Of a DNA stretch of 64,000 nucleotides, positions 8,859-63,866 are shown one piece after another. Location: assembly GCF_028609845.1 (NCBI RefSeq), contig NZ_CP063191.1:1-64000 (forward strand), written 5' to 3'. The first letter of the stretch is position 1. The number at the start of each line of letters is the position of its first letter. The position numbers were made by a program, and so were the translations under genes. The notes beneath the pieces were generated by a model. The model made no database searches, was not told the origin of the DNA, and worked only from the letters and a program-made list of their open reading frames with translations. Origin of the DNA: Corynebacterium heidelbergense. GTDB taxonomy: Bacteria; Actinomycetota; Actinomycetes; Mycobacteriales; Mycobacteriaceae.

Positions 8859-8867
8859 CTGAACGCC

Positions 8868-47720: not shown

Positions 47721-48968
47721 TAGTTAGATAGCGAGGCGAGAAGACCGCGGTTAACGCTGCGGTGCCACATCCCGACGGCACAAACGCGTTCGCCGCCCCC
47801 AGGCAGTCCACAACGGGTCCACCGAGAGCGTATCCGATGAGCATCGCAGCTGAGTTCGTCGAACCCATTGTGGAGAATGCCTTTCGCCGGACATCTGCCG
47901 GTACCGCTGAGGACACGATCAACCGCAGGGCACTGACTTGCCCCGAGTTGCATACGCCAGCAACGAACAGAAGGGCGATGTATGTCGGCAGGTTCCGCCC
48001 GAAGCCCACGGCCAGCAGAGCCAACCCCATGACAATACCGCCAGTGGTGAGAACCCTCGCAGCGTGCTGGCGGCCGAGTCGAGAGGCCGCCCTAGCCCCG
48101 AGTAGCCTACCGACCAGAAACGCTTGGGTCAGGATAGCGAAGGTTATCCCTCCGGCCCGAAGGGTGTCTAGTGCGAAGAAGACCAGCGCCACGTTGTAGA
48201 TCGATGTGAAAATGATCGCGGCCCAAATTATCTGGAACGCGCGCCGCGATGCAGGATCTTGGAGAAGCAACCTTGGCGCCTGGGTTATCTTCGAGACGAA
48301 GCTCTGCTGTCCGCCATGTTCGGACGCCGCGGGCCTTCCCTCCGGGCAAAGACGGCAAGACAACATCCCATTATCACTGCCGCTGCCATCTCGGAGGAAA
48401 CGGCTAACCTCAGTCCGCCGATCTAGAAGAGAACACCGCCGATTCCCGGTCCGATTAAGCCGCCTAGTAACCGGGCGGTGTCCAGACGCACATAGCCCTT
48501 TGCCTCCGCATGCTCTCCTGAATCGGGACCGATCAGACTGACGAGGTGATAAATCGACGGGCACATGATCCCCGCAGTGATCGAACCAATTACAGTACAA
48601 ACCAGCAACACAGGAAAACTAGGCAGAATAAGGATCAGCGCTAGTGAGGCGAGATCCACAACGGATGCAAATAGCGCAACTCGGCGTGGCGACCATCCGT
48701 CAAGGATGGGTACCGTTAATGGGACTAGCGCGATGTTTGCAATCGCGTTACACAGCAAGATACTCGACACCGCTGCAGCGCCATGGCCGTGACGAGCCGC
48801 AAACACGGAAACCGCCACCGTTGTCATGGCGCCGGTTAAAGAGGCTACGAAGTAAGCCAGTATTAGCGGCGAGGTCGCCGGGCGACGTCGCTTAATCAAC
48901 CTTCTTGCACCCAATGATCCATCAAAGTGTTTCTGTGATCGGCTCCGAAACTCGGAAGAGCCGTGCAC
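47671..48968 (-). pseudogene. MFS transporter, broken by TAG and frameshift
   Basis: The N-terminal half (48968-48426) has five or six membrane segments with MFS text (LILAYFVASLTGAMTTVAVS, GPDSGEHAEAKGYVRLDTAR, LLGGLIGPGIGGVLF). It ends at TAG (48423-48425 on minus). Reading through gives IGGLRLAVSSEMAAAVIMG, the expected next helix, so the TAG interrupts one gene. A frameshift near 48310-48350 then moves to the frame that encodes the C-terminal half (from SFVSKITQAPRLLLQD to about 47720). The last about 50 bases overlap paralogue B on the other strand, so the original end is uncertain. Intact it would be about 400 residues; resemblance is to multidrug or sugar-efflux type MFS. Confidence 0.7.
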
Positions 48969-49049
48969 CGGCAGCGTCCCAGGGCCGTCCCCGGGGCGGC
49001 AGGTCGGGTTAGCCCCCGTCCACCGTTCCCGGCCCCTACCCCCTACCCC

Positions 49050-49382
49050 CTACTCCGCTTCGGCCGGCTTAAACGTCACTGCGGTGCCGCTGGCGGAGAC
49101 CATCACCATGTTTCCCTGGCCCAGGGTGAGGTAGTCGATGTCCACCCCCACAATCCCCTGAGCACCGAGCTGCATGGCCCGCTCCACCATTTCTCCCAGC
49201 GCGGTTTCTCGAGCCTGCAGGATTTCGCTTTCGTAGGAGCCGGAGCGTCCGCCGACGATGTTGCGGAAGCCCGCTCCGATATCCTTCAGGGCATTGATAC
49301 CCGCGACGGTTTCGCCCGCTACCACGCGGATGTACTGGTCGATTTGCAGTCCCTGGACTTCGGGGGTGGTTGTCACAATCAT
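49050..49382 (-). CDS. YbjQ family protein (UPF0145)
   Basis: The 110-residue cytoplasmic protein is of the YbjQ/heavy-metal-binding-domain family, which forms pentameric rings. Hallmarks are [11 protein letters not shown] (4-14), [18 protein letters not shown] (about 44-61) and [12 protein letters not shown] (about 73-84). The function of the family is unproven. An AGAAAGGATG-type RBS precedes the ATG at 49382. This marks the return to core-like composition after the island. Confidence 0.88.
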
Positions 49383-49520
49383 GGGGGTTCATCCTTTCTG
49401 CGCCGTGTCTGTCCGGTAGCAGGTGGCGCCCCACGTCCCGCCGCCCTCTGGCGAGGATGAACCGCCACGTGCGGATTTAGACTTTATCCGGGGCCAACCT
49501 CCTCCGCTGACCAAACGGCT

Positions 49521-51191
49521 TTACGTCCAGTTGCGGACCTTCGCAAAAACCTCCGGCCACCGCCGTTCTAGGCGCTTCCCGGCAAGCTGCCTGCCCAAGA
49601 AAAACCCGCCGATACCCAACCCCAGGTTGAGCACCGCCCCGGCCCAGAACAGCCCGCCACCGGCGTTCATCATGACGATCCCTGGGATCATCGGCACCCA
49701 CACGCCGACAAGTACCAGCAGCATCGTCACGAATGCGCCGCTGGAGTAACCGCTGCGGTCCTTCATGGGGTTTGTGCCCGGCCGAGCCGTGGGGAATGGA
49801 TTCGCCACGCTGAGATAGGCCCCCAAACCTAGCCCCCCAAGCAGGCCCGCCACGCACGTCACGGCCAGCAGCATCCAGGTGCCGTCAAAGCCCGCCATCG
49901 CTCCGAGCACGGCAAGGTATGCCATGAGGAAGGGGGCGCTGACCGTCGCGGATACTGCCATTCTTGCGGTCACCATCGTTCGCCCGCGCACTCCAGCGGC
50001 GATGTGTACCCAGTTCCCCGGCCCGTCGTAGCCGTAGTCGTTGCACATGTTCAGCGCCCCGGTGGTTGCCAGCAGGAATGCCCCGAACATTTGGTTGCCG
50101 ACAATCCCGCCGCCGGCACTCTCGCCGCCGCCCTGGAAGACCCCCGTGAGCAGGAAAAACACGGCCAGCAGTGGCATGGTGAAGATCGTGTAGAGGAACC
50201 GCGTGTCCCGCCGCCAGTAGCGAAGCGCCCGGGAGTACAGCGCCCCGCCGACGGTATTCTGCGTCCACGGCACCAGCAGCTTTCCAGTGCCCCGGGTAGT
50301 TCGGTTGCTCTCGCTTGTCTCGGCCACTTTTTTCATTGCGGACGCCAAGCCCGAGCGCCACGTCACCCACCCCACCCAGATAGTTCCGGCGGCAATAACT
50401 AGCTGGGCGGCGCCATACAGCCACTGCCCGTAGGCGAGGGACACTCCCATACCCCCGGCTGCGCCCAGTGGGGTCCAGCCGAGGACGGTGCCGAGCCGCG
50501 CGAGGGAATTGGCGTCCACACCCATATTGATCAGGACGTTGAATCCCAGAATGAGGACGATGAACGCAAAAGATCCGACGAGGGCCAAGCGTTCTTTGAG
50601 CGTCCGGGTGCCAACGGAGGATCCGAGGCTGGCTATCGCCTCACCGCCGACAATCGTGACAAGAAGTGCCAGGACCACGGCCACGGCCCACCCGGCGATC
50701 GCAACGGCCAAGGGGGCGGGGAGGGCGCCTCGGTCGGCGGCGGAAATGAGTGCTGCCGTGCCGAAAGCGAAGGTGATCAGCGAGTTCACCACCGCCAGGA
50801 TGCCGCGGGTCTGCAACACAGCGGCCCACATCAACCCGGGAGTGATGCTGCGTATGGATAGCGGCAGCGTGACGATTCGGCCGGGCTCCAACTGGTTTTC
50901 CCCGCTGGGGTACATGACTGTGATGAGCCAGTACATCAGCGTGCCGGCGGTGAGGGTCAACCCCATGGCCCGGAAATCGGCCCGGCTTGCAGCGTCGATG
51001 ATGAAGCCGCCCAGGCCCAGGCATCCGAGCAGGCCGTAGATCACCACGAAGATGGCGAAGAAGACTTGGCTGGGATTCTTGCGGAAACTACGCCGCCACA
51101 GGACCCGATGCAGGCGCAGCAGTGTGCCGGTGGTGGCCCCGGTGGCAGGGGCTTGCCGAGCGGGGGCGGGTTGCTGGATGGGGGCGCTCAT
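49521..51191 (-). CDS. ABC transporter permease
   Basis: The 556-residue integral membrane protein has about 12 hydrophobic segments in two halves, typical of fused ABC-2-type exporter permeases of actinobacteria. The middle cytoplasmic loop (about 285-325) includes VPWTQNTVGGALYSRALRYWRRD. Its ATG overlaps the stop of the preceding ATPase gene by 4 bases (ATGA), so the two are coupled. Export direction is inferred from the lack of a binding-protein gene; the substrate is unknown. Confidence 0.82.
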   Translation of the reverse strand: MSAPIQQPAPARQAPATGATTGTLLRLHRVLWRRSFRKNPSQVFFAIFVVIYGLLGCLGLGGFIIDAASRADFRAMGLTLTAGTLMYWLITVMYPSGENQLEPGRIVTLPLSIRSITPGLMWAAVLQTRGILAVVNSLITFAFGTAALISAADRGALPAPLAVAIAGWAVAVVLALLVTIVGGEAIASLGSSVGTRTLKERLALVGSFAFIVLILGFNVLINMGVDANSLARLGTVLGWTPLGAAGGMGVSLAYGQWLYGAAQLVIAAGTIWVGWVTWRSGLASAMKKVAETSESNRTTRGTGKLLVPWTQNTVGGALYSRALRYWRRDTRFLYTIFTMPLLAVFFLLTGVFQGGGESAGGGIVGNQMFGAFLLATTGALNMCNDYGYDGPGNWVHIAAGVRGRTMVTARMAVSATVSAPFLMAYLAVLGAMAGFDGTWMLLAVTCVAGLLGGLGLGAYLSVANPFPTARPGTNPMKDRSGYSSGAFVTMLLVLVGVWVPMIPGIVMMNAGGGLFWAGAVLNLGLGIGGFFLGRQLAGKRLERRWPEVFAKVRNWT

Positions 51192-52054
51192 CGGCGGGCC
51201 TCCCCGAGCCAGCCGAGGGAGTCGGCATCCAGGGATCGGCCACCCACGAGCTGCACGAACAGGTCCGAGAGGGATTGCTGTCCCCGCACCTCGTCGATCT
51301 GGCCGCTGGCCAGCACCTGCCCCCGGGCAATGACGGCCACGTGATCGCAGATCCCCTGCACAAGCTCCATCACGTGGGAGCTCATCACCACCGTGCCCCC
51401 GGCAGCCACGTAGTTGTGCAGGATCTGGCGGATGACCTGTCCGGAAACGGGGTCCACCGCCTCGAAGGGTTCGTCCAGGATGAGGATTTCCGGACGGTGC
51501 AGCAGCGCGCCAGCCAGCAGAATCTTCTTGGTCATGCCGGCGGAGTAATCGACGATGTATTTGTCCTGCGCCTCCGCCAGGTCCAGCGCGCCGAGCAGGT
51601 CCTTGCTGCGCTTGTCCACCACGCTGGCGTCCATCCCCCGCAGCAGCCCCAGGTACTCGAGGTACTCCCGTCCGGAGAGCCTGTCGAACACGGGTAGGCC
51701 GTCGGCCAGCAGGCCATAGGCCGCCTTGGCGGCGAGGACCTCGGCGCCATCGGGTTCTGGGTGCTGGCCCGTGCCGGCGGCCCAGATGTCGTGGCCGCAG
51801 ACAACGGCGGTGCCCGCGTCCGGTCGCAGCAGGCCGGTGGCCATCATGATTGTGGTGGTTTTGCCCGCCCCGTTGGGGCCCACCAGACCGTAGAAACTAC
51901 CCCGCGGGATGTCCAGGGAGAGGTTGTGCACCGCCGGTGAGCCCTCGAAGGCCTTGGCGAGGCCCCGCAGGGCGAGGGCGGGCTGGCGTGGGTCCTGAGC
52001 GATGGGTGCGATGTGCGCTGGGGTCCTGGCGTCCATAAGAACTGAGATTTGCAC
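51188..52054 (-). CDS. ABC transporter ATP-binding protein
   Basis: The 288-residue ATPase subunit is for the permease encoded next. Walker A is GPNGAGKTTT (about 59-68), the Q-loop region is near residue 106, and the signature motif is a variant, YSAGMTKK (about 171-178) in place of LSGGQ. Walker B is ILILDEPFEAVDP (about 191-203), with H-loop His in SSHVMEL. The GTG at 52054 has AGGGGG upstream; an ATG at 52036 is the alternative start. It belongs to the CcmA-like exporter group (COG1131). Confidence 0.87.
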   Translation of the reverse strand: MQISVLMDARTPAHIAPIAQDPRQPALALRGLAKAFEGSPAVHNLSLDIPRGSFYGLVGPNGAGKTTTIMMATGLLRPDAGTAVVCGHDIWAAGTGQHPEPDGAEVLAAKAAYGLLADGLPVFDRLSGREYLEYLGLLRGMDASVVDKRSKDLLGALDLAEAQDKYIVDYSAGMTKKILLAGALLHRPEILILDEPFEAVDPVSGQVIRQILHNYVAAGGTVVMSSHVMELVQGICDHVAVIARGQVLASGQIDEVRGQQSLSDLFVQLVGGRSLDADSLGWLGEARR

Positions 52055-52110
52055 AGGCCCCCTGGGCGCGCAACAGCAGACCTGATTTCGATCGAGGGTG
52101 GGCTAGGCTT

Positions 52111-52833
52111 CTACGCCCTGCTGACCAGGCCGATGGTGTTGATGGTTCTCTCTGGCCCGGAGATCGTGAAGCTGTTGGACCCGGATGAGCAGCGCAATAC
52201 TTGATCGGCAGGTTTGGCACAGGTGACTGCGCCGATAGTGACCTGCTGGCCGGTTTCCAATGCTGGCTGGGAGGGAGAGAGCACCTCGAAGACGGTATAC
52301 CGCAGGCCCTGCGAATTCAGGGTGATGCCATTGGGACGGCTCTCATGAAAGGCTTCCCCGCTCACCCCAGGTACTGAGGGGTCAGCCTTGCCGCTGCAGG
52401 TAGTTCCGCTGTCGTTAGCTCCGCAAACCACCACCTTGTTGCCGCCCCAAGCGGCCTTGAACTCGTATAGGGAGCTGCCCCGCCGAAACGATTCCGGGGA
52501 GACCGCCTGCAGCGTCGCCGTTGCCGCCGAGCCCGCGTCCGATTGCGGCGAGCCACCCTGGTTCCCGCCGGGGGAGGGGTTGGTTGATTCCATTGCGGAC
52601 GCCGATGCCCCCGCGCCGGCTGAGGCAGACGAGGACGAGACCGCGCTGCTTTGGTTGGAGAACGCGGCGGTGCTCGCTTCGCCTGGGGTGTCGTCACCGT
52701 TGCACGCGATCAGACCGAAGCTGAGGGTTCCCAGGCTCAATGCGGTGCCGAAGATGACGATCGCGGGTTGGCAGCGCGGCCGCGGCAGTGTGGAAGCGGC
52801 GGAAGTGGGCACGGAGGCATTGTGTTCGGTCAT
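52111..52833 (-). CDS. Putative lipoprotein of unknown function
   Basis: The 240-residue exported protein has a charged N-terminus, a hydrophobic stretch (about 24-43) and a lipobox LIAC (41-44), so Cys44 is probably lipid-modified. A Ser/Ala/Gly-rich low-complexity spacer (about 52-100) is followed by a compact domain (about 108-240). That domain has several Cys (CGANDSGTTCSG, VTCAKPADQVLRCSSG), suggesting disulfides. The family is not recognised. It is divergent from the aldehyde dehydrogenase gene. Confidence 0.65.
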   Translation of the reverse strand: MTEHNASVPTSAASTLPRPRCQPAIVIFGTALSLGTLSFGLIACNGDDTPGEASTAAFSNQSSAVSSSSASAGAGASASAMESTNPSPGGNQGGSPQSDAGSAATATLQAVSPESFRRGSSLYEFKAAWGGNKVVVCGANDSGTTCSGKADPSVPGVSGEAFHESRPNGITLNSQGLRYTVFEVLSPSQPALETGQQVTIGAVTCAKPADQVLRCSSGSNSFTISGPERTINTIGLVSRA

Positions 52834-52927
52834 ACCGCGAACCTAGGCAGGCTTCGGCCCCCGGAGCTTTAGTTCTAGGGAACTGTCCCCAACGCAAAAC
52901 CTTCTCACGGCCTGAAATTGTGACGTG

Positions 52928-52941
52928 TATAACGGTGGCCA
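52928..52941 (+). promoter_or_regulatory. Candidate leaderless promoter of the aldehyde dehydrogenase gene
   Basis: TG-TATAAC (hexamer 52928-52933) ends 7 bases before the ATG at 52941. No Shine-Dalgarno sequence is present. Confidence 0.45.
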
Positions 52942-54344
52942 TGGCTACCTTTGCACTCGAAAACCCAAACACCGGGCAAACGGAAAAGACGTTTGACCGC
53001 ATCGACGATTCCGATCGCGATGCCATCCTGGACCGCGCCACCGAGGCCTACCAGCCCTGGCGCACCACGGACATCGCCACCCGCGCCGAGGTCCTGCGGA
53101 AGGTTGCGGATCTCTACGACGAGCGCGCCGACGAGCTGGCCGACCACATCGGCCGCGAGATGGGCAAGCTGCTGCGCTGGGGCAAGGCGGAGCTGCAGAT
53201 CGTCTCCGGCATCTACCGCTACTACGCCGAGCACGCCTACGAACTGCTGGCCCCGGAGGAGCTGCCCGCCCAGGGTGCCATCCGCAGCTACGTTGAGAAG
53301 GAACCGATCGGCGTTCTCCTTGGCGTGATGCCGTGGAACTTCCCCTACTACCAGGTGGCTCGCTGGGCCGCCCCCAACCTGCTGCTGGGCAACACCCTCG
53401 TGCTTAAGCACGCCTCCATTTGCCCGCTGTCCTCCCAGGCCTGCCAGGATCTGCTGGAGGAGGCGGGTCTGCCCAAGGGTGTCTTCCAGAACATCTACGC
53501 ATCCGGTTCCCAGATGGATGCTTTCATTGCCGACAAGCGGGTGGCCGGGGTTTCCCTCACCGGTTCGGAGGGTGCCGGGTCCGCCGTCGCATCGACCGCC
53601 GGTGAGCACTACAAGAAGTCCCTACTCGAGCTCGGCGGTAATGATCCTTTCCTGATTCTTGACGACGCCAACCTAGACAGCGTTTTGGAACAATTCGTCA
53701 AGATCCGGATGTACAACACCGGCCAGGCCTGCAACGCCCCTAAGCGGCTGATCGTTCAGCGCAGCTTCTACGACCGCACCGTCGAGCTATTGGAGCAGAA
53801 GATCTCCGCCCTGACTGTGGGCACCTACGATGACGAGAGCGCGGACGTGGGTCCGCTGAGCTCCATCGGCGCGCGGGACGACATCGTCGAGCGCCTGGAA
53901 AAGGCCACCGCAGCCGGGGAAGCCACCGTCCGTGTGGGCGGCAAGGCCCTGGACCGGGACGGCGCCTACATGGAACCGACGCTGCTCACCGACGTAGACC
54001 CGAGCGCAGATGTGGGCTGCAATGAGATTTTCGGCCCCGTCGCCATCGTCTACCCGGCCGACAGCGTGGAAGAGGCTGTGAGCATCGCCAACAACTCGGA
54101 CTACGGCCTGTCCAGCTCCGTGTGGAGCACCGACCTGGACAAGGCCCACGAGGTGGCCCGTCAGCTCGAGGACGGCATGACCTTCGTCAACGAGCACTCC
54201 GTCACCGCGCCGGGCCTGCCCTTCGGCGGGGTGGGACGCTCCGGCTACGGCCGCGAACTCGGCCGCTGGGGTGTTGGCGAGTTCGTCAACGAGCACCTCT
54301 ACCGGGTGCGTCCCCAGGACGGCGGCGGGAACTCCCCGGCCTAA
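52941..54344 (+). CDS. NAD(P)-dependent succinate-semialdehyde-type aldehyde dehydrogenase
   Basis: The 467-residue aldehyde dehydrogenase is of the class that oxidises succinate semialdehyde (GabD/SsdA-like). The catalytic Cys is in NTGQACNAPKR (about 254-264), the general-base Glu is in LELGGNDPF (about 231-239), and the oxyanion Asn is in MPWNFPYYQ (about 131-139). The start is taken at ATG 52941, where the family text MATFALENPNTG begins; the frame is open further upstream without homology. The stop codon shares bases with the stop of the convergent gene 54341-54967. The physiological substrate is inferred only from overall similarity. Confidence 0.85.
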   Translation: MATFALENPNTGQTEKTFDRIDDSDRDAILDRATEAYQPWRTTDIATRAEVLRKVADLYDERADELADHIGREMGKLLRWGKAELQIVSGIYRYYAEHAYELLAPEELPAQGAIRSYVEKEPIGVLLGVMPWNFPYYQVARWAAPNLLLGNTLVLKHASICPLSSQACQDLLEEAGLPKGVFQNIYASGSQMDAFIADKRVAGVSLTGSEGAGSAVASTAGEHYKKSLLELGGNDPFLILDDANLDSVLEQFVKIRMYNTGQACNAPKRLIVQRSFYDRTVELLEQKISALTVGTYDDESADVGPLSSIGARDDIVERLEKATAAGEATVRVGGKALDRDGAYMEPTLLTDVDPSADVGCNEIFGPVAIVYPADSVEEAVSIANNSDYGLSSSVWSTDLDKAHEVARQLEDGMTFVNEHSVTAPGLPFGGVGRSGYGRELGRWGVGEFVNEHLYRVRPQDGGGNSPA

Positions 54345-54967
54345 CCCGTCTGCGCGGGCTGGTCACCGGAGCTGGGGTTAGCACTGGGTCCACCGTTCGG
54401 TCCGTCCGGTCCCCGATCGCCCTCCTGGGCTTCGTGCTGCTGGTGCATCTCATCCATGGCCTGGGTGACCTTGGAAACATCGATGCCCAGGGCATCGGCA
54501 AGCTCCTGGTCCATCTGCTTCTTCTTCGCCTCCATCTCCTCCTTGGAGGGCTTCTGATGCGGCTGGCCGGGCTGGCCCTGCTCCGCGCCGGGCTTGGGCT
54601 TGTCGTCCTGGTGTTTCTGCCGGACGGTCTCCAAAGCGTTGTGTAGCTTGTCCTGGCTCACCCCCAACTTCTGGGCCAGGGCGGCCTCGTCGAGCTTCGG
54701 GCCGTGATGCCCATGGCCGCCGCGGTGGCCCCCGTGGGGCTTGCCCGGTTTGTCCGGCTTGCCACCCTGATCCGCCCCGGGCTGGGGTTGGTCCTTCTGG
54801 GCGTCGGGAGCACCCGGCTGAGCTTCCCGCTGGATTGCCGTCTGGCTCCCGGTCTGTTCCGCCGACGGGTTCCCGGAAGCGTGGGCCAAGCCAGCTCCGG
54901 CGGACAGAGCCACTGCCGTTATGCCCCCGGCCAGAGCCAACTTTTGGGGCCATTTCACGTTGCGCAT
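54341..54967 (-). CDS. Secreted His/Gln/Pro-rich protein
   Basis: The 208-residue exported protein has a signal peptide (about 1-30, MRNVKWPQKLALAGGITAVA, cleavage near AHA-SGN). A Pro/Gln/Gly-rich stretch follows, then a cluster HGGHRGGHGHHG (about 77-88) that could bind metal. Two similar short helical units follow, ALAQKLGVSQDKLHNALE and ELADALGIDVSKVTQAMD, like repeated clp/YqfQ-type mini-domains. AAGGAG lies before the ATG at 54967. I know similar repeats in actinobacterial secreted proteins, but the function is unknown. Confidence 0.65.
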   Translation of the reverse strand: MRNVKWPQKLALAGGITAVALSAGAGLAHASGNPSAEQTGSQTAIQREAQPGAPDAQKDQPQPGADQGGKPDKPGKPHGGHRGGHGHHGPKLDEAALAQKLGVSQDKLHNALETVRQKHQDDKPKPGAEQGQPGQPHQKPSKEEMEAKKKQMDQELADALGIDVSKVTQAMDEMHQQHEAQEGDRGPDGPNGGPSANPSSGDQPAQTG

Positions 54968-55368
54968 GTTCCTAGTCTCCTTAGGTCTCGATTGCGCGGA
55001 CAATGTGAACCCGACGACGCTCGAGAAACCCAGAGGGAAGGGGGTGGAGGGCAGCGCGATGAGCCTGTCTCTTTTACCGCCCGGCCCTCCGGCTATTCGG
55101 TGGAGCGATGTGACCGTCGGGGCCACTGAAGAGACAAGGTAACGATGCACTGTTGCTGCAGCATGAACCTATCCGGGCAGGTCAGTAGGGATTTATTCGA
55201 GGGCTTCTGCCCCCTACACGGGGAGGGTGTGGGGGCGCCCTGTTTAAGACGTCCCCAGCACATTTGATTCCTCTCGCCGGCCTGGTAAAGGGCGGTAGGC
55301 CGACCCCAAGGGGGCCAACCAAGCGCTGTCAGGGGCTCCCGAAACTCCCTAGACACCCAGGTCAGTAC
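54968..55368. other. Gap between the His-rich protein and lipase genes
   Basis: These 401 bases carry no convincing gene. They contain a hairpin, CCCCCTACAC (55210-55219) with GTGTGGGGG (55228-55236, one bulged T), which may end transcription of the lipase gene or structure the leader of 54967. No clear -10 was found. Confidence 0.4.
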
Positions 55369-56808
55369 CTAGAACTGGCCACAATTGGACGGGGCCGGAA
55401 CATTATTGAACCGGTCGATCAGGTAACCATACGAGGTCGGAAGCTGCTCGATAAGGGGGAGGGCGTGGTTAACCGCCGATTTCGGCAGGATCGGTGGTAT
55501 CTCGCTGGCGACAAACTGCACCGCGGAGCCCGTAGAACAATAGTCGGCGGCCATTTGCCGGGCTTGACCAAATGGAATGGTGTCGTCGGCCCGTCCATTG
55601 ATCACCAGCATCGGGGCGTTGAGCTTTCGCTTACCTAGAATCTGCGCGTCCACAATCGCCCGCAGGTCGGGGAGACGATCGAGGAGCTCGTTGAACGATT
55701 CACCGGTCTTCGTCAGTGTTCGAGTGTCGGTGAAACCGTAGGCACCGACCGTGTCGACGATGCAGCGATCCTCTGTTTCCTCCAGGAAACGCTTACCCTT
55801 TTCGTTGAATTCCTGGTCCACCAAGTAGGCCAACTGAGGTTCCCGCTCGAGTTCTCCGTTGAGTACATAACCGAGTACACCCGCGATGGCGTTGCCGTCC
55901 ACGGCCTTGGCAACCTCGTACAGGTTGGACGGCGGGGCACCGGCGTAAGTGCCCTTGAGGTTGATGTCCGGGGCATATTCCTCGGCGTACTCGGCGGCTG
56001 CAGCAGTAGCGCCCCCGCCTTGGGAGTAACCGTAGAACCCCACAGGGGAATCCGCAGGCAGCTTCAGCGCGGCCAGTCCGGCGCGGGCGGCATCTAGGGT
56101 GGCGTGTGCTTCGTCTCGCGTGTTGACGTAGGTGTGGGCGCCGGGGGTGCCGAGCCCGATGAGGTCCGTGGCCACCACGCGGATGCCCATTGCGCTGGCC
56201 AGATACATAAAGGGCAGTTCGTAGTCCAGGCCCACGGACAGGTTGTTCGGGTTCGCTGCGGCAAACAGAGCGGCTTCCCGGGAGGGGGCGCACACATCCG
56301 CAGCGCCGCGGGTGCCCGGGGCGAAGACGATGGTGGGGGTGGGACCCTTGCCGCGCCATGAGGTCACCGGCTCGATAGTGAAACCGCTGACGGCGACGGG
56401 GTCGCCCTTTTCCGTGGTAGAGCTGTACAAAATCTTCTGGGCCGAGCCCGCCCCGCCGTTGGCGAAGGGGTTGAGCAGCTGCGGTGCGGGCTCCGTGCGA
56501 ATTAGGGAACCGGGCTTGGTGGGAAGGTTGGCGGGGGGAAGGTAGAAGGGGTCGTTGGGGTTGTACACCCCCGGTAGCGTCTCGGGCAGCGCAAAGCCAG
56601 GGTTGAAAGGCACGGTCTGGCCGAGGACCGTAGATCCGGCAAGGCCCGGGTCCGCTGGGCTGACGGCGCCGGGGGGAGTTGCCGGGGTGGCCTCGGGCTG
56701 TGCAGCGGCCGGGGCAGCGAGGAGGGCGGAGACGCCAGCTTGAATGGCAAGGGCGCTGGCCACAGCGGTGATGGCGGCGCCGACTCGGGAGGGCTTTAGA
56801 GTTCGCAT
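55369..56808 (-). CDS. Secreted lipase (LIP family)
   Basis: The 479-residue exported alpha/beta hydrolase is of the secretory-lipase family found in lipophilic corynebacteria and mycobacteria. It has a signal peptide (about 1-38, ending AAPAAA-QPE), a Pro-rich spacer, then the lipase fold. The nucleophile elbow is GYSQGGGAT (about 243-251), and a likely Asp/His pair lies in INGRADDTIPF (about 411-421) and AVNHALPLIE (about 452-461). The ATG at 56808 starts MRTLKPSRVG; the frame extends 16 codons upstream without support. Fatty-acid release from host or environmental lipids is the family role. Confidence 0.82.
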   Translation of the reverse strand: MRTLKPSRVGAAITAVASALAIQAGVSALLAAPAAAQPEATPATPPGAVSPADPGLAGSTVLGQTVPFNPGFALPETLPGVYNPNDPFYLPPANLPTKPGSLIRTEPAPQLLNPFANGGAGSAQKILYSSTTEKGDPVAVSGFTIEPVTSWRGKGPTPTIVFAPGTRGAADVCAPSREAALFAAANPNNLSVGLDYELPFMYLASAMGIRVVATDLIGLGTPGAHTYVNTRDEAHATLDAARAGLAALKLPADSPVGFYGYSQGGGATAAAAEYAEEYAPDINLKGTYAGAPPSNLYEVAKAVDGNAIAGVLGYVLNGELEREPQLAYLVDQEFNEKGKRFLEETEDRCIVDTVGAYGFTDTRTLTKTGESFNELLDRLPDLRAIVDAQILGKRKLNAPMLVINGRADDTIPFGQARQMAADYCSTGSAVQFVASEIPPILPKSAVNHALPLIEQLPTSYGYLIDRFNNVPAPSNCGQF

Positions 56809-56936
56809 GACGGTGAATGTAGTGCTTTTCCCAACAAAGCATGAAGGTTTTGACAAACTAAATGCGCGATTCTTCAGATGCTCTGCGGAACGCCATTGTG
56901 AGTCGGTCAGGACCCCACGTTAAAGAGGTAGGAACT

Positions 56937-56949
56937 ACCGTCGTGGGCC
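56937..56949. promoter_or_regulatory. Candidate operator upstream of the SbnA-like operon
   Basis: The perfect inverted repeat GGTAG-GAA-CTACC lies in the divergent gap between the lipase and SbnA-like genes, 102 bases before the latter's ATG. Outer CACG/CGTG arms extend the symmetry. The binding regulator is unknown; it does not match the DtxR consensus. Confidence 0.35.
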
Positions 56950-57037
56950 GTGTAAAAGGTGCACGTGATCCGCAAACCGAGGGCTTGTAGGGCACCATAC
57001 TTATAGCCGAATAACTAAGGGACTGCCGTTTCGTCCG

Positions 57038-57051
57038 TATCATGGCGGCCA
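57038..57051 (+). promoter_or_regulatory. Candidate leaderless promoter of the SbnA-like gene
   Basis: TATCAT (57038-57043) ends 7 bases before ATG 57051. This favours 57051 over the ATG at 57042, which lies inside the hexamer. Confidence 0.4.
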
Positions 57052-58094
57052 TGACAACAGCTCGGCCCACGCAGGTAGGGTTTCTCGACACTCTTGGTAA
57101 TACCCCCCTAGTACGGCTGGATAAGGTAAACCCCTCCGACGCCGTCACGCTTTGGGGGAAGCTGGAGCAATTCAACCCAGGCGGCAGTGCCAAGGACCGG
57201 ACCGCTGCTGCTCTGGTGGAGGCCGCAGTGGCCAACGGCACCCTGAGCGAGGGCGCCACCCTCGTCGAATCGAGTTCCGGCAACCTGGGAATCGCCCTGG
57301 CCCGCCAGGCCCTAGTCAACGGTTGGGGCTTTCGTTGCGTGGTGGACCCGCGGGTCAACCGTGCAACCGTGGCGATGATGGAGGCACTGGGGGCCACGGT
57401 GGAGTTCGTTACCGAGCCAGACCCGGAGACAGGGGACTGGCTGGTAGCGCGCCGCAAGAAAGTTCGGGATTTGGTGGATTCCATCCCGGGTGCGGTGAAC
57501 CTGGACCAGTACTCCAACCCGGCTGCCCGCCGCGCGCACTCGGAGGGCACGATGCGGGAGATCGTGCGGGACTTGGGCCGAGCCCCGGACTGGCTCTTCG
57601 TGGCGGTGAGCACGACCGGCACCATCGGCGGCTGCGCGGACTATGCGGAGGCCATCGGGGCGGATACCCGCATCGTCGGGGTGGACGCGGAAGGCTCCGT
57701 GCTCTTCGGCGGGAAACGCGGCGATAGGCACCTGCCCGGGTTCGGGGCTGGGGCCGTGCCGGATCTCTCCCTGAGCGTGAAACCCGCCCGGGTGGATCGG
57801 ATTGACGACGTGTCCAGCGTGGTGGGTGCCCGCGTACTCGCGGCGACCGAGGGCATCCTGCCGGGGGCTTCCGGGGGCGCGGTCATTACCGCGGCTCTGC
57901 GGGCGGTCGAGGCAATGGATCCCGGCAGCTCGGCGGTCCTCATCTTCCACGATGCAGGATCCGCTTACTTGGACACCGTCTACAACGACGAGTGGGTGCA
58001 AGACACGTTCGGCGTGGCCCCGCAGGAGTTGCAACGCCGTGTCGACACCGTGGTCGCCGAGTGCGCCGGCCCGTCGCAGGTAGTGAGGAATTAG
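57051..58094 (+). CDS. PLP-dependent cysteine-synthase-like enzyme, SbnA type
   Basis: The 347-residue fold-type II PLP enzyme has the Schiff-base Lys in NPGGSAKDRTA (Lys48 from this start). The substrate loop reads SSGNLGIALA, as in SbnA (N-(2-amino-2-carboxyethyl)-L-glutamate synthase) rather than the TSGNTG of cysteine synthases. The phosphate-binding loop is STTGTIGG (about 187-194). SbnA joins O-phosphoserine and glutamate in the route to 2,3-diaminopropionate. The gene is followed after 3 bases by the fusion gene 58098-61358, so the two form one operon. SbnA-like specificity is inferred from the loop; no SbnB gene is adjacent. Confidence 0.8.
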   Translation: MTTARPTQVGFLDTLGNTPLVRLDKVNPSDAVTLWGKLEQFNPGGSAKDRTAAALVEAAVANGTLSEGATLVESSSGNLGIALARQALVNGWGFRCVVDPRVNRATVAMMEALGATVEFVTEPDPETGDWLVARRKKVRDLVDSIPGAVNLDQYSNPAARRAHSEGTMREIVRDLGRAPDWLFVAVSTTGTIGGCADYAEAIGADTRIVGVDAEGSVLFGGKRGDRHLPGFGAGAVPDLSLSVKPARVDRIDDVSSVVGARVLAATEGILPGASGGAVITAALRAVEAMDPGSSAVLIFHDAGSAYLDTVYNDEWVQDTFGVAPQELQRRVDTVVAECAGPSQVVRN

Positions 58095-58097
58095 GAC

Positions 58098-61000
58098 ATG
58101 GAGAAGGCTGCGGAATCGGCAATGGAACGCCACGAGGGAACTACCTTGGGGGAGCCTTCGACCGCCTGGCGGGTGGGCATTATCGGCGGCGGTCCCCGCG
58201 CGCTGTGGGCCGTGGAGGAGTTGGTGGGCCAGGCCCGGCGGCGCGGTGTATCGCTGCAGGTGGAGGTGTGGGATCCGTTCCAGCCTGGCGCGGGCCGGGT
58301 TTACCGGGAGGAACAGCCGAGCTACTACCGGTTGAACGTGCGCTCTGATGTGGTTTTCTCCGCCCTGGGGACGCTTAACCAGTGGCGGGGCAGCTCCACG
58401 TTCTTCCCGCCGCGCCGCGAGGTGGGTGCTTTCCTCAGTGCATCCTTCCGCCATGCCCAGCGCACGGCACCGCCGAATTGCCGCATCGAACACATCCCCG
58501 AGTACGTCTCGGATCTCTCCCCCATCCCGGTGGGGCTCGGCGGCCAGACTGCGGCAGCAGAGGGAACACACGAGACCGCCGAGAGGTCGGGGCGCTGGCA
58601 GATCACCGGGGCCTCCGGGCAGCGTCGCTATGACGAAGTCTTGTTGTGCACCGGCCATGCCGATCGTTGGCCGGGCGCGTTGAGTCCCGGTGTTGTTGGG
58701 GGTCCCGGTCTTCTTGACCTTGGGGACGCCACCTCCCCGATCGTGGGCAGCCCGTATCGCGGGGCCGCAACTGGGGGTGACCCGACGGATTCGGGGGCGC
58801 CATCCCAAGTGCCCCTAGAGTTGATCCCCGAGGGCGAAGCGGTGGGCGTTCGCGGCGCCGCCCTGACATTCATCGACACCTGCATGGCCCTAAGCGAGGG
58901 TCGCGGGGGAGCGTTCCGCGAACGTGCGGACGGCAGCGGCCTGCTGGACTATCACCGGTCCCCAGATGCCGGTGGGCCCCGGGAACCCAACGTCATCTAT
59001 CCGGTTAGTCGGGGTGGGCGGTTCATGGAGGTCAAACCGGACCCCAGCGGAAGCCTGAACGGGTTGTGCACCCGCGAGTTAGAGGGCTACAGCCAGCAGA
59101 TTCGGCAGGCCAAGGGCTTCGCGGATGTTCGGCAGGCCCTGGCGCGGGCGGCCGTGGATCTCCTGTGCGTGGGTCGCCTCGTCAGCCCGCGGGAGGGTGA
59201 GCAATTGACCCCCGCCGCGGCCCGCGACCAGGTGGAGGCCGTCCTGAACGGAACGGATACCGATCCGCAGCAGCACAGCCCGCTCGAGGAATTCCGGCGC
59301 TCCTACCTGGTGGCCATCGGCAAGGCCCCGGCGTCGGCGGCCTGGGCGGTGGGGGAGGCGCTGCGAAGGCTCTACCCCGCCCTCGTCCAGCGGGCCTCCT
59401 ACGGGGGTCGCCGCCTCCTGGAGGGCGAGGCCAAGGCCTTCACCGGATTGACCCGGAGGCTCGAGCGGGTGGCTTTTGGCCCGCCACCGCAGACGGCGGG
59501 CGCGGTAATTGCACTGGCGGATGCGGGCCTGGTAGATGATCGATTTATGGGTTCTGCGGAGGTGATCGACCACTGGATGGACGGGAAGGCCGAGCCCGGC
59601 GAGGGCATCGCGGTCACCGCGCTCGTGGATGCCGTCATCCCCCCGCCGGGCCTCGTGGAGGGCACGCTCACACAGCGGCTGAGCGCCCGTGGGCTGCTCG
59701 AAAAGGACGAGCTCACCGGGAGTGTACTCACAAACCCGGATGCCTCCGTCCCCGCCCAGCCCGGCCTTGCGGTGGTCGGGCGCGATGTAGAGGGCACGGT
59801 TCTGGGCCACGACACCCTCAACCGCACCATGCACCCAGAAATACCCAGGTGGGCCCATGCTGTCGGCCAGCGCGCCGCTGCACAGACAGGCACGCAGCAG
59901 GGCACCTTGGACCGCCGCATGCAGGCCCTCCAGCCGCTGACGGCCCGCCTGGAACCGTGGGCCGAGGATCTGTGCGCGAACCAGGAACTGTGCGCGGAGC
60001 TCGTCGAAAAGTGGGGAAGCCCGGTGAACGTGCTGCACCCAGAGGTACTGCCCGCCAACGCCGTGGAACTCGTACAGGCTGGGGCCGATGCCGGGGTTGA
60101 TGTCCGCATCTTCTTCGCCCGGAAGGCCAATAAGGCCCTGGGGTTTGTGGACGCCGCTCACCGCGCGGGGCATGGCGTGGATGTAGCCAGCCAACGGGAA
60201 CTCACCCAAGTACTGGACCGGGGTGTCCCGGGGGAGAAGATCATCCTGTCCGCCGCGATTAAGCCGGATGCGCTACTGGATATTGCGATCCGCGCCGGGG
60301 CTGTGATCTCCGTGGATAGCGTGGCCGAGCTCCGCCGCATCGAGGAAAGGGCCCGGGCCTTGGCCAAGGGCTCCCCGGAGCTTCGGGCGAAGATTGCCCC
60401 ACGCGTAGCCCCGGAACCCGACACGCTGCCGCCCACCCGCTTCGGGGAACGCGCCGGGGTCTGGCTCGCGGCCCTGTCCCGCGACGGCCTGGACTCACAC
60501 GTTTCCCTCGTGGGCGTGCACCTGCACCTGCACGGGTATTCGGAAGGGGACCGGCGCATCGCGCTCGGCCAGGCCCTGGGCCTCATCGACGAGGTGCGTG
60601 AGTTGGGCCACCGGCCGGAATTCGTCGACCTCGGCGGAGGCGTGCCCATGAGCTACCTGGATGACGCCAACGAGTGGCATCAGTTCTGCGCCCGCAGGCA
60701 GAACCTCCAGGACCGGCTGGACGCCGGGGTGGCCATCCCCGGCGAGGAAGAATTCACGTGGAAGATGGACCCCCTGCGGAACACCTACCCCTTCCACCAA
60801 AGCCCGACACGGGGTTCCTGGCTGGTCCAACTGCTGGCCGGCGAGCTGCCCGGTGCCGTGTCGGCAGCCCAGGCGCTGAAAGACCGGGGGCTGCGCCTGC
60901 ACCTCGAACCAGGTCGCAGCATCCTCGACGGGGGAGGCGTCATCCTGGCCCGCGTGGCCTTCGTCAAGACTCGCAGTGATGGCGTGGGCCTCGTGGGGCT

Positions 61001-61358
61001 CGAGATGAACCGCACCCAGTGCCGGACCACGGCAGATGACATCTTGGCGGATCCACTCCTCATCGCGCCCGGTGGGGTGGCGTCGCCAAGAAAACGAGAC
61101 AACATTGGCCTGGAGGCATACCTCGTCGGTGCGTACTGCATCGAAGATGAAGTGATTGTGCGCCGGAAAATGGTCTTCCCCCAAGGGGTCTGCGCGGGGG
61201 ACATCGTGGCCATCCCCAACACCGCCGGGTACTTCATGCACATCCTGGAAAGCGCCTCCCACCAAATCCCGCTGGCGAAAAACGTGTTGCTGGACGGGCG
61301 CGGGACAGCCAGGCTGGACGATATCGACAGGCCAATGGCACACGGTACCGGCAACTGA
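58098..61358 (+). CDS. FAD/NAD(P)-binding protein fused to a PLP-dependent decarboxylase-fold enzyme
   Basis: The 1086-residue two-domain protein is the core of the operon. Residues about 24-600 are an FAD/NAD(P)-binding oxidoreductase of the NAD_binding_9/COG4529 type, with GIIGGGPRALWA (27-38), YYRLNVRSD and a second dinucleotide-like region. Residues about 608-1086 have the fold-type III PLP decarboxylase arrangement of diaminopimelate/ornithine decarboxylases, closest to the Y4yA-like group. The PLP Lys676 is in FFARKANKA, HLHLHGYSEGD is the next motif, then LHLEPGRS (about 934-941) and GAYCIEDE (about 1013-1020). Stand-alone homologues of both parts exist, so this is a fusion. Predicted chemistry is oxidation plus decarboxylation of an SbnA-type product; the actual product is unknown. 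Confidence 0.8.
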   Translation: MEKAAESAMERHEGTTLGEPSTAWRVGIIGGGPRALWAVEELVGQARRRGVSLQVEVWDPFQPGAGRVYREEQPSYYRLNVRSDVVFSALGTLNQWRGSSTFFPPRREVGAFLSASFRHAQRTAPPNCRIEHIPEYVSDLSPIPVGLGGQTAAAEGTHETAERSGRWQITGASGQRRYDEVLLCTGHADRWPGALSPGVVGGPGLLDLGDATSPIVGSPYRGAATGGDPTDSGAPSQVPLELIPEGEAVGVRGAALTFIDTCMALSEGRGGAFRERADGSGLLDYHRSPDAGGPREPNVIYPVSRGGRFMEVKPDPSGSLNGLCTRELEGYSQQIRQAKGFADVRQALARAAVDLLCVGRLVSPREGEQLTPAAARDQVEAVLNGTDTDPQQHSPLEEFRRSYLVAIGKAPASAAWAVGEALRRLYPALVQRASYGGRRLLEGEAKAFTGLTRRLERVAFGPPPQTAGAVIALADAGLVDDRFMGSAEVIDHWMDGKAEPGEGIAVTALVDAVIPPPGLVEGTLTQRLSARGLLEKDELTGSVLTNPDASVPAQPGLAVVGRDVEGTVLGHDTLNRTMHPEIPRWAHAVGQRAAAQTGTQQGTLDRRMQALQPLTARLEPWAEDLCANQELCAELVEKWGSPVNVLHPEVLPANAVELVQAGADAGVDVRIFFARKANKALGFVDAAHRAGHGVDVASQRELTQVLDRGVPGEKIILSAAIKPDALLDIAIRAGAVISVDSVAELRRIEERARALAKGSPELRAKIAPRVAPEPDTLPPTRFGERAGVWLAALSRDGLDSHVSLVGVHLHLHGYSEGDRRIALGQALGLIDEVRELGHRPEFVDLGGGVPMSYLDDANEWHQFCARRQNLQDRLDAGVAIPGEEEFTWKMDPLRNTYPFHQSPTRGSWLVQLLAGELPGAVSAAQALKDRGLRLHLEPGRSILDGGGVILARVAFVKTRSDGVGLVGLEMNRTQCRTTADDILADPLLIAPGGVASPRKRDNIGLEAYLVGAYCIEDEVIVRRKMVFPQGVCAGDIVAIPNTAGYFMHILESASHQIPLAKNVLLDGRGTARLDDIDRPMAHGTGN

Positions 61359-61537
61359 CTAGGTACCCTGGGCTGCACGACCCGATCGACCGCACGATCC
61401 GATCGGCTGTGCGGCGCTGTGGATGCGAGCCCACTGGTTTTCGCTCCTTGTTGTTCACCTCCCCCCGGTGTTTGTATCGAGAGGTAGACGCGCCGCCCTC
61501 CCCCATCCCAGCCGCGATGATTACGAAGGATGAACCG
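61359..61537. other. Gap after the fusion gene
   Basis: These 179 bases contain the probable promoter and leader of the next gene. No terminator with a U-tract is evident. Confidence 0.35.
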
Positions 61538-62239
61538 ATGAGCTACCGCAACGGAAATCACGACAATTACGACGATCAAACCCGCCAACTGAACATGAAC
61601 GACTACCAGGGCGGGCGCAATAGTTACGGCAACTCCGGTGGTGATTTCTACCGGGACGAGGATTACGGGCGTTCCGGGGAATACGGCTCCCGGGACAGCC
61701 GCGCCCAGCAGGGTTACCAGAGCTACCAGCAGGGCTATCAACCGGAATACGCCGCACCGGCTGGCAACGCGGCTCCAGCTCCCTCGGCCACCCCGCCTGC
61801 GGCGCCGAAGCAGTCCCTCATCGCGGGGCGGTTCGATACCAAGAAGGTCATCGTCAACCTGGTGATGCTCGGCCTGCTGTCCGCCGTGGTGACCTTCGCC
61901 CTGGTGTACGTGGTGGACCTTTTGGTCGGCCTGCTGCCGGGCATGGTGTCCCTGGGGATGGGGCCGGCGGTGATGTCCGGGGTGATTGCCGGGGTTCTAG
62001 GCGTGGTCGCTGGTCTGCTCTACATCCCCGTCGCCGGAACGGGCAACGAGCACCTCTTCGGCCTGGCCGTCATCGCGCTCGCCGTGGTGGCGATCGTGGT
62101 GTGGGTGGTGCTCGGCGGCCTGCTCAACGGGGACTGGCGCACCCTCGTGACGCTCACGGGAATCATCTGCACCGCCGCGACGGCATACGCTACGCCCTCC
62201 CGCATCGAGTCCGCTGACGTGCGGGGATACGCCCGCTAG
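61538..62239 (+). CDS. Membrane protein with Tyr/Asn/Gly-rich N-terminal tail
   Basis: This is a 233-residue protein. Residues 1-85 are highly hydrophilic and rich in Tyr, Asn, Gly, Gln and Asp (RNGNHDNYDDQTR, YQSYQQGYQPEY), a low-complexity prion-like composition. Residues about 108-225 form four hydrophobic segments. GAAGGA precedes the ATG at 61538 by 7 bases, which decides against the longer frame from 61409. The family is not recognised. The tail resembles those of actinobacterial membrane proteins with disordered cytoplasmic segments. Confidence 0.65.
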   Translation: MSYRNGNHDNYDDQTRQLNMNDYQGGRNSYGNSGGDFYRDEDYGRSGEYGSRDSRAQQGYQSYQQGYQPEYAAPAGNAAPAPSATPPAAPKQSLIAGRFDTKKVIVNLVMLGLLSAVVTFALVYVVDLLVGLLPGMVSLGMGPAVMSGVIAGVLGVVAGLLYIPVAGTGNEHLFGLAVIALAVVAIVVWVVLGGLLNGDWRTLVTLTGIICTAATAYATPSRIESADVRGYAR

Positions 62240-62587
62240 ACCCGTCTCCATGGCCCGGGCGCACACCCTGGCCGGAGCGTGAACCTTTCCTGGAAATCCT
62301 TTCAGCTACGCGGTCTTGGCTTGACCGCAGTGGGGGAGGCTTGCGTAGGTTGGCGGGCCGTGGGTGGCCACCGGAACTTCCGTGGCCGAGATCTCAGTGC
62401 CGGAGTTGGGCGTACCTATCCGCCCAGGCGGATAAAGAAATCCCCCTCCCTGGCACGGCAGACACCTTGTACATCGCCCCAGCTTCGTAGCACTTGCTGC
62501 GCTGCGGCCGCACGCGCCGAACCCGACGTTCGAGTCCCGCGAGGGCCGCTTCAAAGCGAAATAAGTACTCGAGCAGGAGTTTCTTTC
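62240..62587 (+). promoter_or_regulatory. Long structured leader of rpf; possible c-di-AMP riboswitch
   Basis: These 348 bases without a gene contain a hairpin, GGCCAC (62366-62371) with GTGGCC (62382-62387), and a perfect 8+2+8 palindrome TATCCGCC-CA-GGCGGATA (62417-62434). Near the 3' end, CCGAACCCG (62517-62525) is followed by a GCGAGGG segment. The last part resembles the 3' core of ydaO/yuaA c-di-AMP riboswitches (CCGAAYCCG), which often precede rpf genes in actinobacteria. I could not place the 5' core, so the riboswitch call is tentative; the palindrome could instead be an operator. Confidence 0.35.
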
Positions 62588-62917
62588 ATGCGTAAGTCCG
62601 TTAAGACCACCTTGACCCGCTTTGCCCTGGCCGCCGGAACCGCTGGTGCCGTGGCCGCTGCCGCCCCGGCCGCGAACGCCAGCCAGTGGGATCAGGTCGC
62701 AGCCTGCGAGTCCGATGGTAACTGGTCCACGAACACCGGCAACGGCTTCTACGGTGGCCTGCAGTTCACCGCCGAAACCTGGAACGGGTACGGCGGCGGG
62801 CAGTACGCCCCGACTGCGGACCAGGCGTCCAGGGAACAGCAGATCGAGATCGCGGAGAAGGTTCTTGCCGGGCAGGGCGCAGGTGCCTGGCCGGTGTGCG
62901 GCGGCCCGGTCGCTTAA
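62588..62917 (+). CDS. rpf: Resuscitation-promoting factor
   Basis: Rpf proteins are secreted peptidoglycan-cleaving enzymes that stimulate growth of dormant actinobacteria. The 109-residue product is a signal peptide (about 1-32, ending AANA-SQW) plus the Rpf domain only. That domain includes the catalytic Glu in [11 protein letters not shown] (about 37-47), [12 protein letters not shown] (about 54-65) and paired Cys. AGGAG lies 10-14 bases before the ATG. It lacks the LysM, DUF348 or G5 modules of larger Rpf proteins, so it is the small RpfA/RpfC-like form. Confidence 0.92.
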
Positions 62918-62993
62918 CTCGGTCGACTAAACCGTTCACTTCATCGCCCGCCGAGCCCCCCGGGGGCCACCGCAATCCCGGGCGAACCCAGAC

Positions 62994-63746
62994 CTACTGG
63001 GGCAGCAGTTCCTGTGGAATGCCCATCCCCAGTAGGTCTTCGCGCGTCATCTCGGACTTCTCCAACGCAGCGGCGGCCACATGCCGCATCTGCTCCTCCG
63101 GCGCAGGGATGCGGCGCTGCTCGCTCATGAGGACCGTCAGGGTCTCCGGGTGATCCCGGAAGGCTTGCCACACCAGGGACGTGGCCAGCGCCTCCAGCAC
63201 CAGCCCCCGTGGGCGCCGGGCCTGCTCCGGGACGGGGGCTCGCTTCCCGCCGCCGCGGGGGCGCACGTGCAGATCTTGCTGCCCGATTCCAACGACCGAG
63301 CCATCGCGGTTACGCACCACGGTGGTGTAGGGGACATTGCAGTAGCCGTCCTTCGCGATGCATTCCTTGATCCAGGCAATGAGCTCATCGCTGACCTCCA
63401 CCTCCAGGTAGGCGCCGTTGCGCCCGGGCGTGAGGAACTGGAAGGTGCCGGTGCGGGTCCAGGCCTCGAAGTCCTTGCCCATACGGCGGTTGACCAGGGT
63501 GCCGAAGAGCACGTCTGTCATGGAGAAGAGCGTGCCGCCGAAGGCAGCCGCGTGCATGTTGAGGTTGAGGAAGTTCAGCCGCAGCTCCAGCCGCCCCCCG
63601 GACCAGTCCGGTTCGATGTGGGTGATGCGAATACCGGAGCCGAACAGCGGGGTCCAGGCGCTCATCATGCGGCGGGCTAACTGTGGGGAGGACAGGGCCT
63701 GCGCGGCGAGGCGGGAGGGGTGTAGGAGGTTTTTGACGAATCCCAT
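62994..63746 (-). CDS. DUF4442 hotdog-fold protein (PaaI-like thioesterase relative)
   Basis: The 250-residue cytoplasmic protein has a single hotdog-type domain (about 15-160). Text includes LNFLNLNMHAAAFGGTLFSM (about 51-70), the region that in thioesterases carries the catalytic residues. The C-terminal Arg/Pro-rich part and acidic tail are not conserved. The ATG at 63746 is preferred because homology starts at GFVKNLLHP; a GTG at 63770 would add eight residues. Acyl-CoA thioester hydrolysis is a family guess. Confidence 0.7.
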   Translation of the reverse strand: MGFVKNLLHPSRLAAQALSSPQLARRMMSAWTPLFGSGIRITHIEPDWSGGRLELRLNFLNLNMHAAAFGGTLFSMTDVLFGTLVNRRMGKDFEAWTRTGTFQFLTPGRNGAYLEVEVSDELIAWIKECIAKDGYCNVPYTTVVRNRDGSVVGIGQQDLHVRPRGGGKRAPVPEQARRPRGLVLEALATSLVWQAFRDHPETLTVLMSEQRRIPAPEEQMRHVAAAALEKSEMTREDLLGMGIPQELLPQ

Positions 63747-63866
63747 ACTGCTGATTGTGTCACAACTCACTTATCGCTCGAGTGCAGATAACTATAAGTG
63801 CAGCACTGTCGCCGGAGTCGGCGAAACCGGCGTTCTCCCCGTCCACCTGCCATTACCCTCGAAGCC

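Follow-up and report, generated by a model that had tools for sequence, protein, structure and literature searches.

The first 64,000 nucleotides of contig NZ_CP063191.1 of Corynebacterium heidelbergense (assembly GCF_028609845.1; hereafter, the window), which open the larger contig of a 2.33 Mb genome assembled in two, carry an operon of two adjacent genes encoding three enzymes, namely a synthase resembling SbnA of the staphyloferrin B pathway, and a fusion of a flavoprotein with a decarboxylase dependent on pyridoxal 5'-phosphate (PLP). The same trio recurs, fused or as separate genes, in other Corynebacterium species and well beyond the genus, as what looks like a compact three-enzyme pathway with no conserved partner genes beside the operon. 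What the analysis shows is gene content, gene order, conservation, catalytic signatures and folds; as to function, we see an even chance that SbnA-type coupling, N-oxygenation and decarboxylation combine to produce a small N-oxidised diamine or aminopolycarboxylate.

The synthase gene (57042..58094, + strand; 350 aa; PALP domain, 186 bits; NCBIfam TIGR03945) starts either at 57042 or at an in-frame second ATG at 57051, the start assumed in the original prediction, which was made from the sequence of the window. The fusion gene (58098..61358, + strand; 1086 aa) follows the stop at 58094 after a spacing of 3 bp. Both open reading frames (ORFs) lie where they had been predicted, and the proposed joining of an oxidoreductase binding flavin adenine dinucleotide (FAD) and NAD(P) to a PLP decarboxylase is borne out by the Pfam domains NAD_binding_9 (PF13454, residues 28-159) and Orn_Arg_deC_N (PF02784, residues 668-875). 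The flavoprotein half, a distant relative of the aspartate N-hydroxylase FzmM, takes up residues 1-600 (58098..59897, + strand), and the fold-type-III PLP decarboxylase half residues 601-1086 (59898..61355, + strand), the predicted structure of the whole having a mean predicted local distance difference test score (pLDDT) of 81.6. The gene pair is not a product of chance, since a 96% identical fusion protein is known from C. heidelbergense, and since a search with the fusion, in which 7992 candidates were scored, returned 179 proteins at E<=0.001 (120 listed).

As to the synthase, the NCBIfam models rank it as SbnA (TIGR03945, 338.8 bits), well ahead of cystathionine beta-synthase (CBS, 199.7), CysKM (193.5) and CysK (178.1). 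The score is slightly below the curated TIGR03945 cut-off of 349.95 bits, while both of the operon orthologues tested, from Brachybacterium (L057, 359 bits) and Blastopirellula (L129, 383.5 bits), are above it. Specificity in SbnA is set by Y152 and S185, and R132 is a further residue that we take to belong to the active site. In the alignment to 5d84, the window synthase has its PLP lysine at K51, and its R137, Y157 and S190 match SbnA R132, Y152 and S185; the SbnA-type Tyr and Ser are kept in all 21 operon-linked synthases, as opposed to three outgroup synthases that have His/His/Phe and Gly/Gly/Gly in these two columns. The best solved match is likewise SbnA of Staphylococcus aureus (PDB 5D84, 225 bits; next enzyme, 157). 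According to the excerpted text of PMC12414870, SbnA joins O-phosphoserine to glutamate to form N-(2-amino-2-carboxyethyl)-glutamate (ACEGA), and Y152 and S185 are among its active-site residues that have been substituted. The SbnA-like identity originally proposed is thus supported by profile, by solved match and by residues, and neither profile nor active site places the enzyme with the cysteine synthases, of which the genome holds a separate member (CysK, 434 bits; cut-off, 351). What sets it apart from SbnA of the staphyloferrin B pathway, besides the score below the curated cut-off, is the lack of an adjoining SbnB or NRPS-independent siderophore (NIS) synthetase: no SbnB-like neighbor is conserved across the 80 loci considered below, and no match to TIGR03944 is found in the window's genome.

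In the decarboxylase half, the PLP lysine (K676), the GGG (846-848) and EPGR (937-940) motifs and C1014 do not vary in any of the 34 rows of the fusion alignment (A1), window included, and, judging by such alignments, both halves of the fusion appear to keep their cofactor and catalytic signatures rather than to have lost PLP or FAD binding, a loss that the original prediction had named as evidence against itself. The fold, the PLP lysine, EPGR and the catalytic Cys are common to diaminopimelate decarboxylases, D-ornithine/D-lysine decarboxylases and SbnH (6KNH). The window enzyme, however, belongs to a subfamily of its own, scoring 97.7 bits with the LysA model TIGR01048, far under the cut-off of 297.9 that the genome's own LysA exceeds (447.9 bits). 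It is nearer to the decarboxylases of a second, SbnB-containing type of cluster found in five genomes, which reach 71-149 bits, compared with at most 38 bits for other LysA-region matches among the matches listed.

A three-domain class-B flavin monooxygenase fold extends across the whole flavoprotein half, and its only solved relative over the whole length is an N-hydroxylating monooxygenase, the aspartate N-hydroxylase FzmM, with 25% identity on the structural alignment. The catalytic Asn62 of FzmM corresponds to N80, present in 28 of 28 rows of the flavoprotein alignment (A6) and in 34 of 34 of A1, and the family has Arg or Lys at the position of FzmM Arg13, so that fold, catalytic Asn and this basic residue are common to the FzmM/CreE enzymes (PDB 8CP2, 8CP5; PMC10404684). 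Other residues differ: the FzmM R266 column is Lys in 28 of 28 family rows, and R562, D572, and W585 are invariants peculiar to the family, missing or variable in ten compared other flavoproteins (out of twelve; L044 and L049, whose called ORFs looked too long, were left out of the residue table). The FzmM R577 column is not surely placed, and its mapping to R576 could not be confirmed. Nor is there a third conserved gene such as nitrosuccinate lyase, none being present among the ten window flank genes scanned and no third gene being conserved in the 80 loci; it was not sought elsewhere. The flavoprotein family is, by these comparisons, a separate branch of PF13454, a domain present in both of the two scanned among the twelve other flavoproteins, and no close kin of FzmM; the window half falls into no NCBIfam family. 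An identity as an SbnB-like dehydrogenase was considered and rejected, as neither Pfam nor NCBIfam gives a match to SbnB or to the OCD family, and the SbnB-like oxidation of the adduct that had originally been ascribed to this half is doubtful, given also the nature of its solved relative. Two technical points apply here: most of the structure-match list (50 rows) is taken up by decarboxylases, so a fold missing there proves nothing, and row L019 of a further alignment (A2) contains a long run of unknown letters.

The trio is conserved and tightly linked. With profile A7, SbnA-type genes (at least 437 bits, the CysK group reaching at most 331, and the five matches between these values being all from SbnB-type or paralogous loci) are found in 48 of 101 Corynebacterium genomes, with gene positions taken from the matches listed. 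In 47 of these 48 (a remnant in G094 counted), a flavoprotein match begins right after the synthase on the same strand, and a decarboxylase match is present in all 48, in 46 of them on the same stretch after the flavoprotein. In G092, the synthase and the flavoprotein are on one contig and the decarboxylase on another; in G094, a short flavoprotein remnant adjoins the synthase and the remainder of the fusion lies on the opposite strand at a distance of some 43 kb; in G020, an opposite-strand ORF is placed between synthase and flavoprotein (L144, 4406-5743), the gap being about 1.65 kb there and in Corynebacterium jeikeium (L105). A broader scan of genome contigs for the decarboxylase produced 268 stretches and 213 relatives, the best 80 of which were studied as loci; as they were found through the decarboxylase, they cannot tell how frequent the other genes are without it. 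The order synthase, flavoprotein, decarboxylase is present in 74 of the 80 (L105 included), five of the remaining six being cut by contig ends and one (L076) having a 537-aa ORF as its flavoprotein, too divergent for tblastn. The hosts include species of Brachybacterium, Microbacterium, Kocuria, Hoyosella, Arthrobacter, Glutamicibacter, Demequina, Jonesia, Tessaracoccus, Rothia, Patulibacter, Phycicoccus, and Corynebacterium, as well as the planctomycete Blastopirellula marina, and so the gene neighborhood that the original prediction proposed to look for in other genomes exists in many Actinomycetota and in one planctomycete. Overlaps of a few bases between the genes, as in translational coupling, are seen in several loci, and the commonest cluster of neighbors beyond the trio occurs in only 13 of the 80. 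Gene calling, done with a simple caller, went wrong at some loci (L105, L112, L126). Extra, partly degraded synthase or decarboxylase copies are found near the operon in a small number of Corynebacterium genomes (L021, 18304-18997; G016:C1:1062576-1064396; G049:C1:1047454-1048590).

The flavoprotein and the decarboxylase have been fused repeatedly. Among 81 decarboxylases compared, 27 are fused and 54 split, and thus the description of a two-gene operon, while correct as to a short operon, is too narrow, separate genes being commoner and the two-gene form being the fused version. In a quick IQ-TREE phylogeny of these 81 and two outgroups, in which fused proteins were represented by their last 470 residues, the fused and split states need at least seven changes, at least five of them forced by starred branches (L112 is labeled split in the tree and is probably fused, through a gene-calling error). 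One set of fused forms joins Corynebacterium with Rothia and Propioniciclava sinopodophylli; others stand apart from it, in Phycicoccus, Kocuria palustris, and Brachybacterium tyrofermentans. The gene order in the fusions is identical each time, as would suit the hand-over of an intermediate, although the weight of this constancy is limited by the fact that neighboring genes can fuse only in their existing order. Such repeated fusion suggests the hand-over of an unstable N-oxidised intermediate between the two sites, and it fits the coupled active sites of the original prediction.

In the pathway that we favor, the synthase likely couples O-phosphoserine to an amino acid (by analogy, glutamate) through the amino group of the latter, to give ACEGA or a close analogue. 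The flavoprotein half, as a putative class-B flavin monooxygenase of the PF13454 superfamily, would then oxygenate an amine nitrogen, with NADPH and O2, in the ACEGA-type compound or in its amino-acid precursor, and the unstable N-oxidised intermediate would be passed from the flavoprotein site to the decarboxylase site, where the PLP enzyme likely removes a carboxylate, most plausibly the one at the diaminopropionate end.

A number of observations weigh against this scheme. The aspartate-binding residues of FzmM are not kept, the N413 column being without Asn in 28 rows and the R416 column having Arg in 3 of 28, and therefore the substrate of the flavoprotein differs from aspartate. That an N-hydroxylase is the best match is partly due to the search having found no solved member besides FzmM. 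When 394 genomes drawn from the class were searched with profile A2, twelve other flavoproteins emerged that score 168-203 bits with the family profile A6, a range that includes FzmM itself (180); one of the twelve is an FzmM orthologue (193 bits with A6, 847 bits to 8cp2), and another, L046, which is not an orthologue, reaches 252 bits to 8cp2, compared with 42 bits for the window half as a single sequence. The N-hydroxylase reading, therefore, is based on the superfamily, the fold and the catalytic Asn, and not on any special nearness to FzmM. No transporter or regulator is conserved beside the trio in the 80 loci. Finally, in three of the 101 Corynebacterium genomes (G002, G037, and G038) the flavoprotein is present without an SbnA-type gene, G002 retaining a 56-residue decarboxylase remnant, and comparison of the flavoproteins of G002 and G038 (nonsynonymous divergence, dN, 0.034; synonymous divergence, dS, 0.474) indicates purifying selection, the neighboring PhzF-family gene of the same two genomes giving a dN of 0.035 and a dS of 0.374. 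A lone flavoprotein maintained under purifying selection implies that its substrate may not need the synthase, and the enzyme could work on a common amino acid, possibly ahead of the synthase. Flavoprotein genes with no adjoining synthase or decarboxylase are seen in L022 (9592-11040), L145 (~7770-9202), L023 (8817-10190), and L055 (9276-10913).

The second type of cluster, found in 5 of the 101 Corynebacterium genomes (G054, G069, G013, G043, and G068), bears on the alternatives. It shares with the trio the core of a PALP synthase and a decarboxylase, the latter related to that of the trio at 24-31% identity, and differs in having an SbnB-like OCD-family gene instead of the flavoprotein, a GTGG loop in the synthases of L031 and L032, and a MATE gene (recognized by Pfam in L031, L141, and L143, and by likeness in L032 and L142). 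These clusters are located at 8282-16580 in L031, 7879-16276 in L032, 6550-11385 in L141, 5696-10519 in L142, and 5387-10635 in L143, and a metal-type ABC importer (Peripla_BP_2/FecCD/ATPase) adjoins the one in L031 by Pfam, with a similar one, by likeness, in L032. From its gene content, this is likely a cluster for a metallophore of the ethylenediaminedisuccinate (EDDS) type. None of the five genomes holds the SbnA-type trio, so the flavoprotein would occupy the slot that the SbnB-like enzyme has in these clusters.

This exclusion, along with the lack of any SbnB-family match in the window's genome, speaks for the flavoprotein replacing SbnB, that is, oxidising ACEGA at its secondary amine, either by dehydrogenating it or by forming, through N-oxygenation, a nitrone open to hydrolysis, with release of 2-oxoglutarate and free (or N-hydroxy) 2,3-diaminopropionate, which would be decarboxylated to (N-hydroxy)ethylenediamine. 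We nevertheless hold such a route to be unlikely: five genomes are too few for mutual exclusion to weigh, the flavoprotein has no resemblance to SbnB or OCD proteins in Pfam or NCBIfam and persists without the synthase in three genomes, and its monooxygenase fold and catalytic Asn favor oxygenation over simple dehydrogenation. Quite improbable, in our judgment, is an EDDS-like aminopolycarboxylate metallophore, made by SbnA-type coupling and decarboxylation to an N-(2-aminoethyl) amino acid, to which the flavoprotein would add a metal-binding N-OH group. An ‘EDDS-like aminopolycarboxylic acid’ cluster was called by antiSMASH 7 in Corynebacterium striatum, according to the part of PMC10486106 available, and an antiSMASH aminopolycarboxylic-acid cluster type is mentioned for skin corynebacteria in an excerpt of PMC12542688. 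In C. striatum ATCC 6940 (G051, L122), SbnA-family matches at E<=1e-60 comprise the synthase of the trio and one protein of the CysK group, and no SbnB-type match is found in this genome; with the trio as the only SbnA-type locus found there, the call in the excerpted article may refer to the trio operon. The putative likeness to EDDS genes, such as the aes cluster of A. japonicum, however, goes back to this published antiSMASH statement, neither an exporter nor a metal importer is conserved beside the trio, and upstream of 19 operons no site comes close to the DtxR or Zur consensus (best, 12 of 19 and 13 of 18 bases, not scored against chance).

Two other explanations have very little in their favor. 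The trio could supply a building block of the diaminopropionate or N-hydroxydiamine type to an NIS siderophore made elsewhere in the genome, and the window's genome does have an NIS synthetase gene at ~2.0 Mb. NIS synthetases are found in 11 of the 101 Corynebacterium genomes, however, and do not co-occur with the SbnA-type gene (both in 5, NIS only in 6, SbnA-type only in 43, neither in 47; Fisher p = 1), and this role was rejected as highly improbable. Equally hard to credit is a place in ordinary amino-acid metabolism, in which the synthase would be a second synthase for cysteine or a related compound and the fusion a variant diaminopimelate decarboxylase, even if databases name the fusions ‘diaminopimelate decarboxylase’ and some synthase orthologues ‘cysteine synthase’: the LysA (97.7 vs 297.9 bits) and CysK (178 vs 351) models are missed by far, the synthase has SbnA-type active-site residues, and a separate CysK (434 bits) and LysA (448 bits) of the same genome exceed their cut-offs. 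Returning to the scheme of coupling, N-oxygenation and decarboxylation, a bolder form of it, possible but well short of probable, is that the pathway is self-contained, has spread sporadically, and leads to small N-oxidised diamines or amino acids of a new class, with N-oxygenation, perhaps iterative, replacing SbnB in opening the adduct. Candidate products would then be N-hydroxy or nitro derivatives, for instance those of diaminopropionate, ethylenediamine or N-(2-aminoethyl)glutamate.

Among ten genes that flank the operon in the window and were scanned with Pfam (~48426-63770) are those for a lipase, an aldehyde dehydrogenase, a transglycosylase-domain protein, a DUF4442 protein, an ABC ATPase (51188-52054), and a fragment of an MFS transporter (48423-48968), four having no Pfam match over the cut-off. 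The ABC-type ATPase gene (PF00005) adjoins, within 49521-52054 on the minus strand, a 556-aa membrane-protein-like frame with no Pfam match. The closest transport genes are at least 5 kb upstream of the operon and on the opposite strand, hence no exporter is among the immediate neighbors, and no NIS synthetase is found beside the operon in the window; the statement that no nonribosomal peptide synthetase (NRPS), NIS synthetase or exporter is adjacent holds for these neighbors. The NIS synthetase gene of this genome (PF04183; G000:C1:1999229-1999990), located outside the window, is part of an 872-aa open frame. Between 56700 and 61700 no promoter-like sites were found, and the single terminator-like site, within the fusion gene, does not stand above shuffled sequences.

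Overall, the enzymes are of known kinds, in a combination not found in the open PubMed Central literature searched. No paper was found there on SbnA together with Corynebacterium, decarboxylase and siderophore, the trio operon is not described in the portions of PMC12096840 and PMC11296517 consulted, and the pairing of N-oxygenation with decarboxylation in one fused enzyme was not encountered in this literature either. The route may thus be called undescribed as to the combination, though less surely as to the locus, as the EDDS-like label reported for C. striatum in the available part of PMC10486106 may belong to the trio operon. Nearly half of the sampled Corynebacterium and many other Actinomycetota carry the trio under misleading names, such as diaminopimelate decarboxylase. 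If the proposed pathway is correct, these hosts have in common a widespread and so far unknown small metabolite, and a single fused enzyme couples nitrogen oxygenation to decarboxylation. With two or three proteins seemingly enough for the whole pathway, rebuilding it would give direct access to the product, and would also shed light on the EDDS-like label that the trio locus may be receiving in genome mining.

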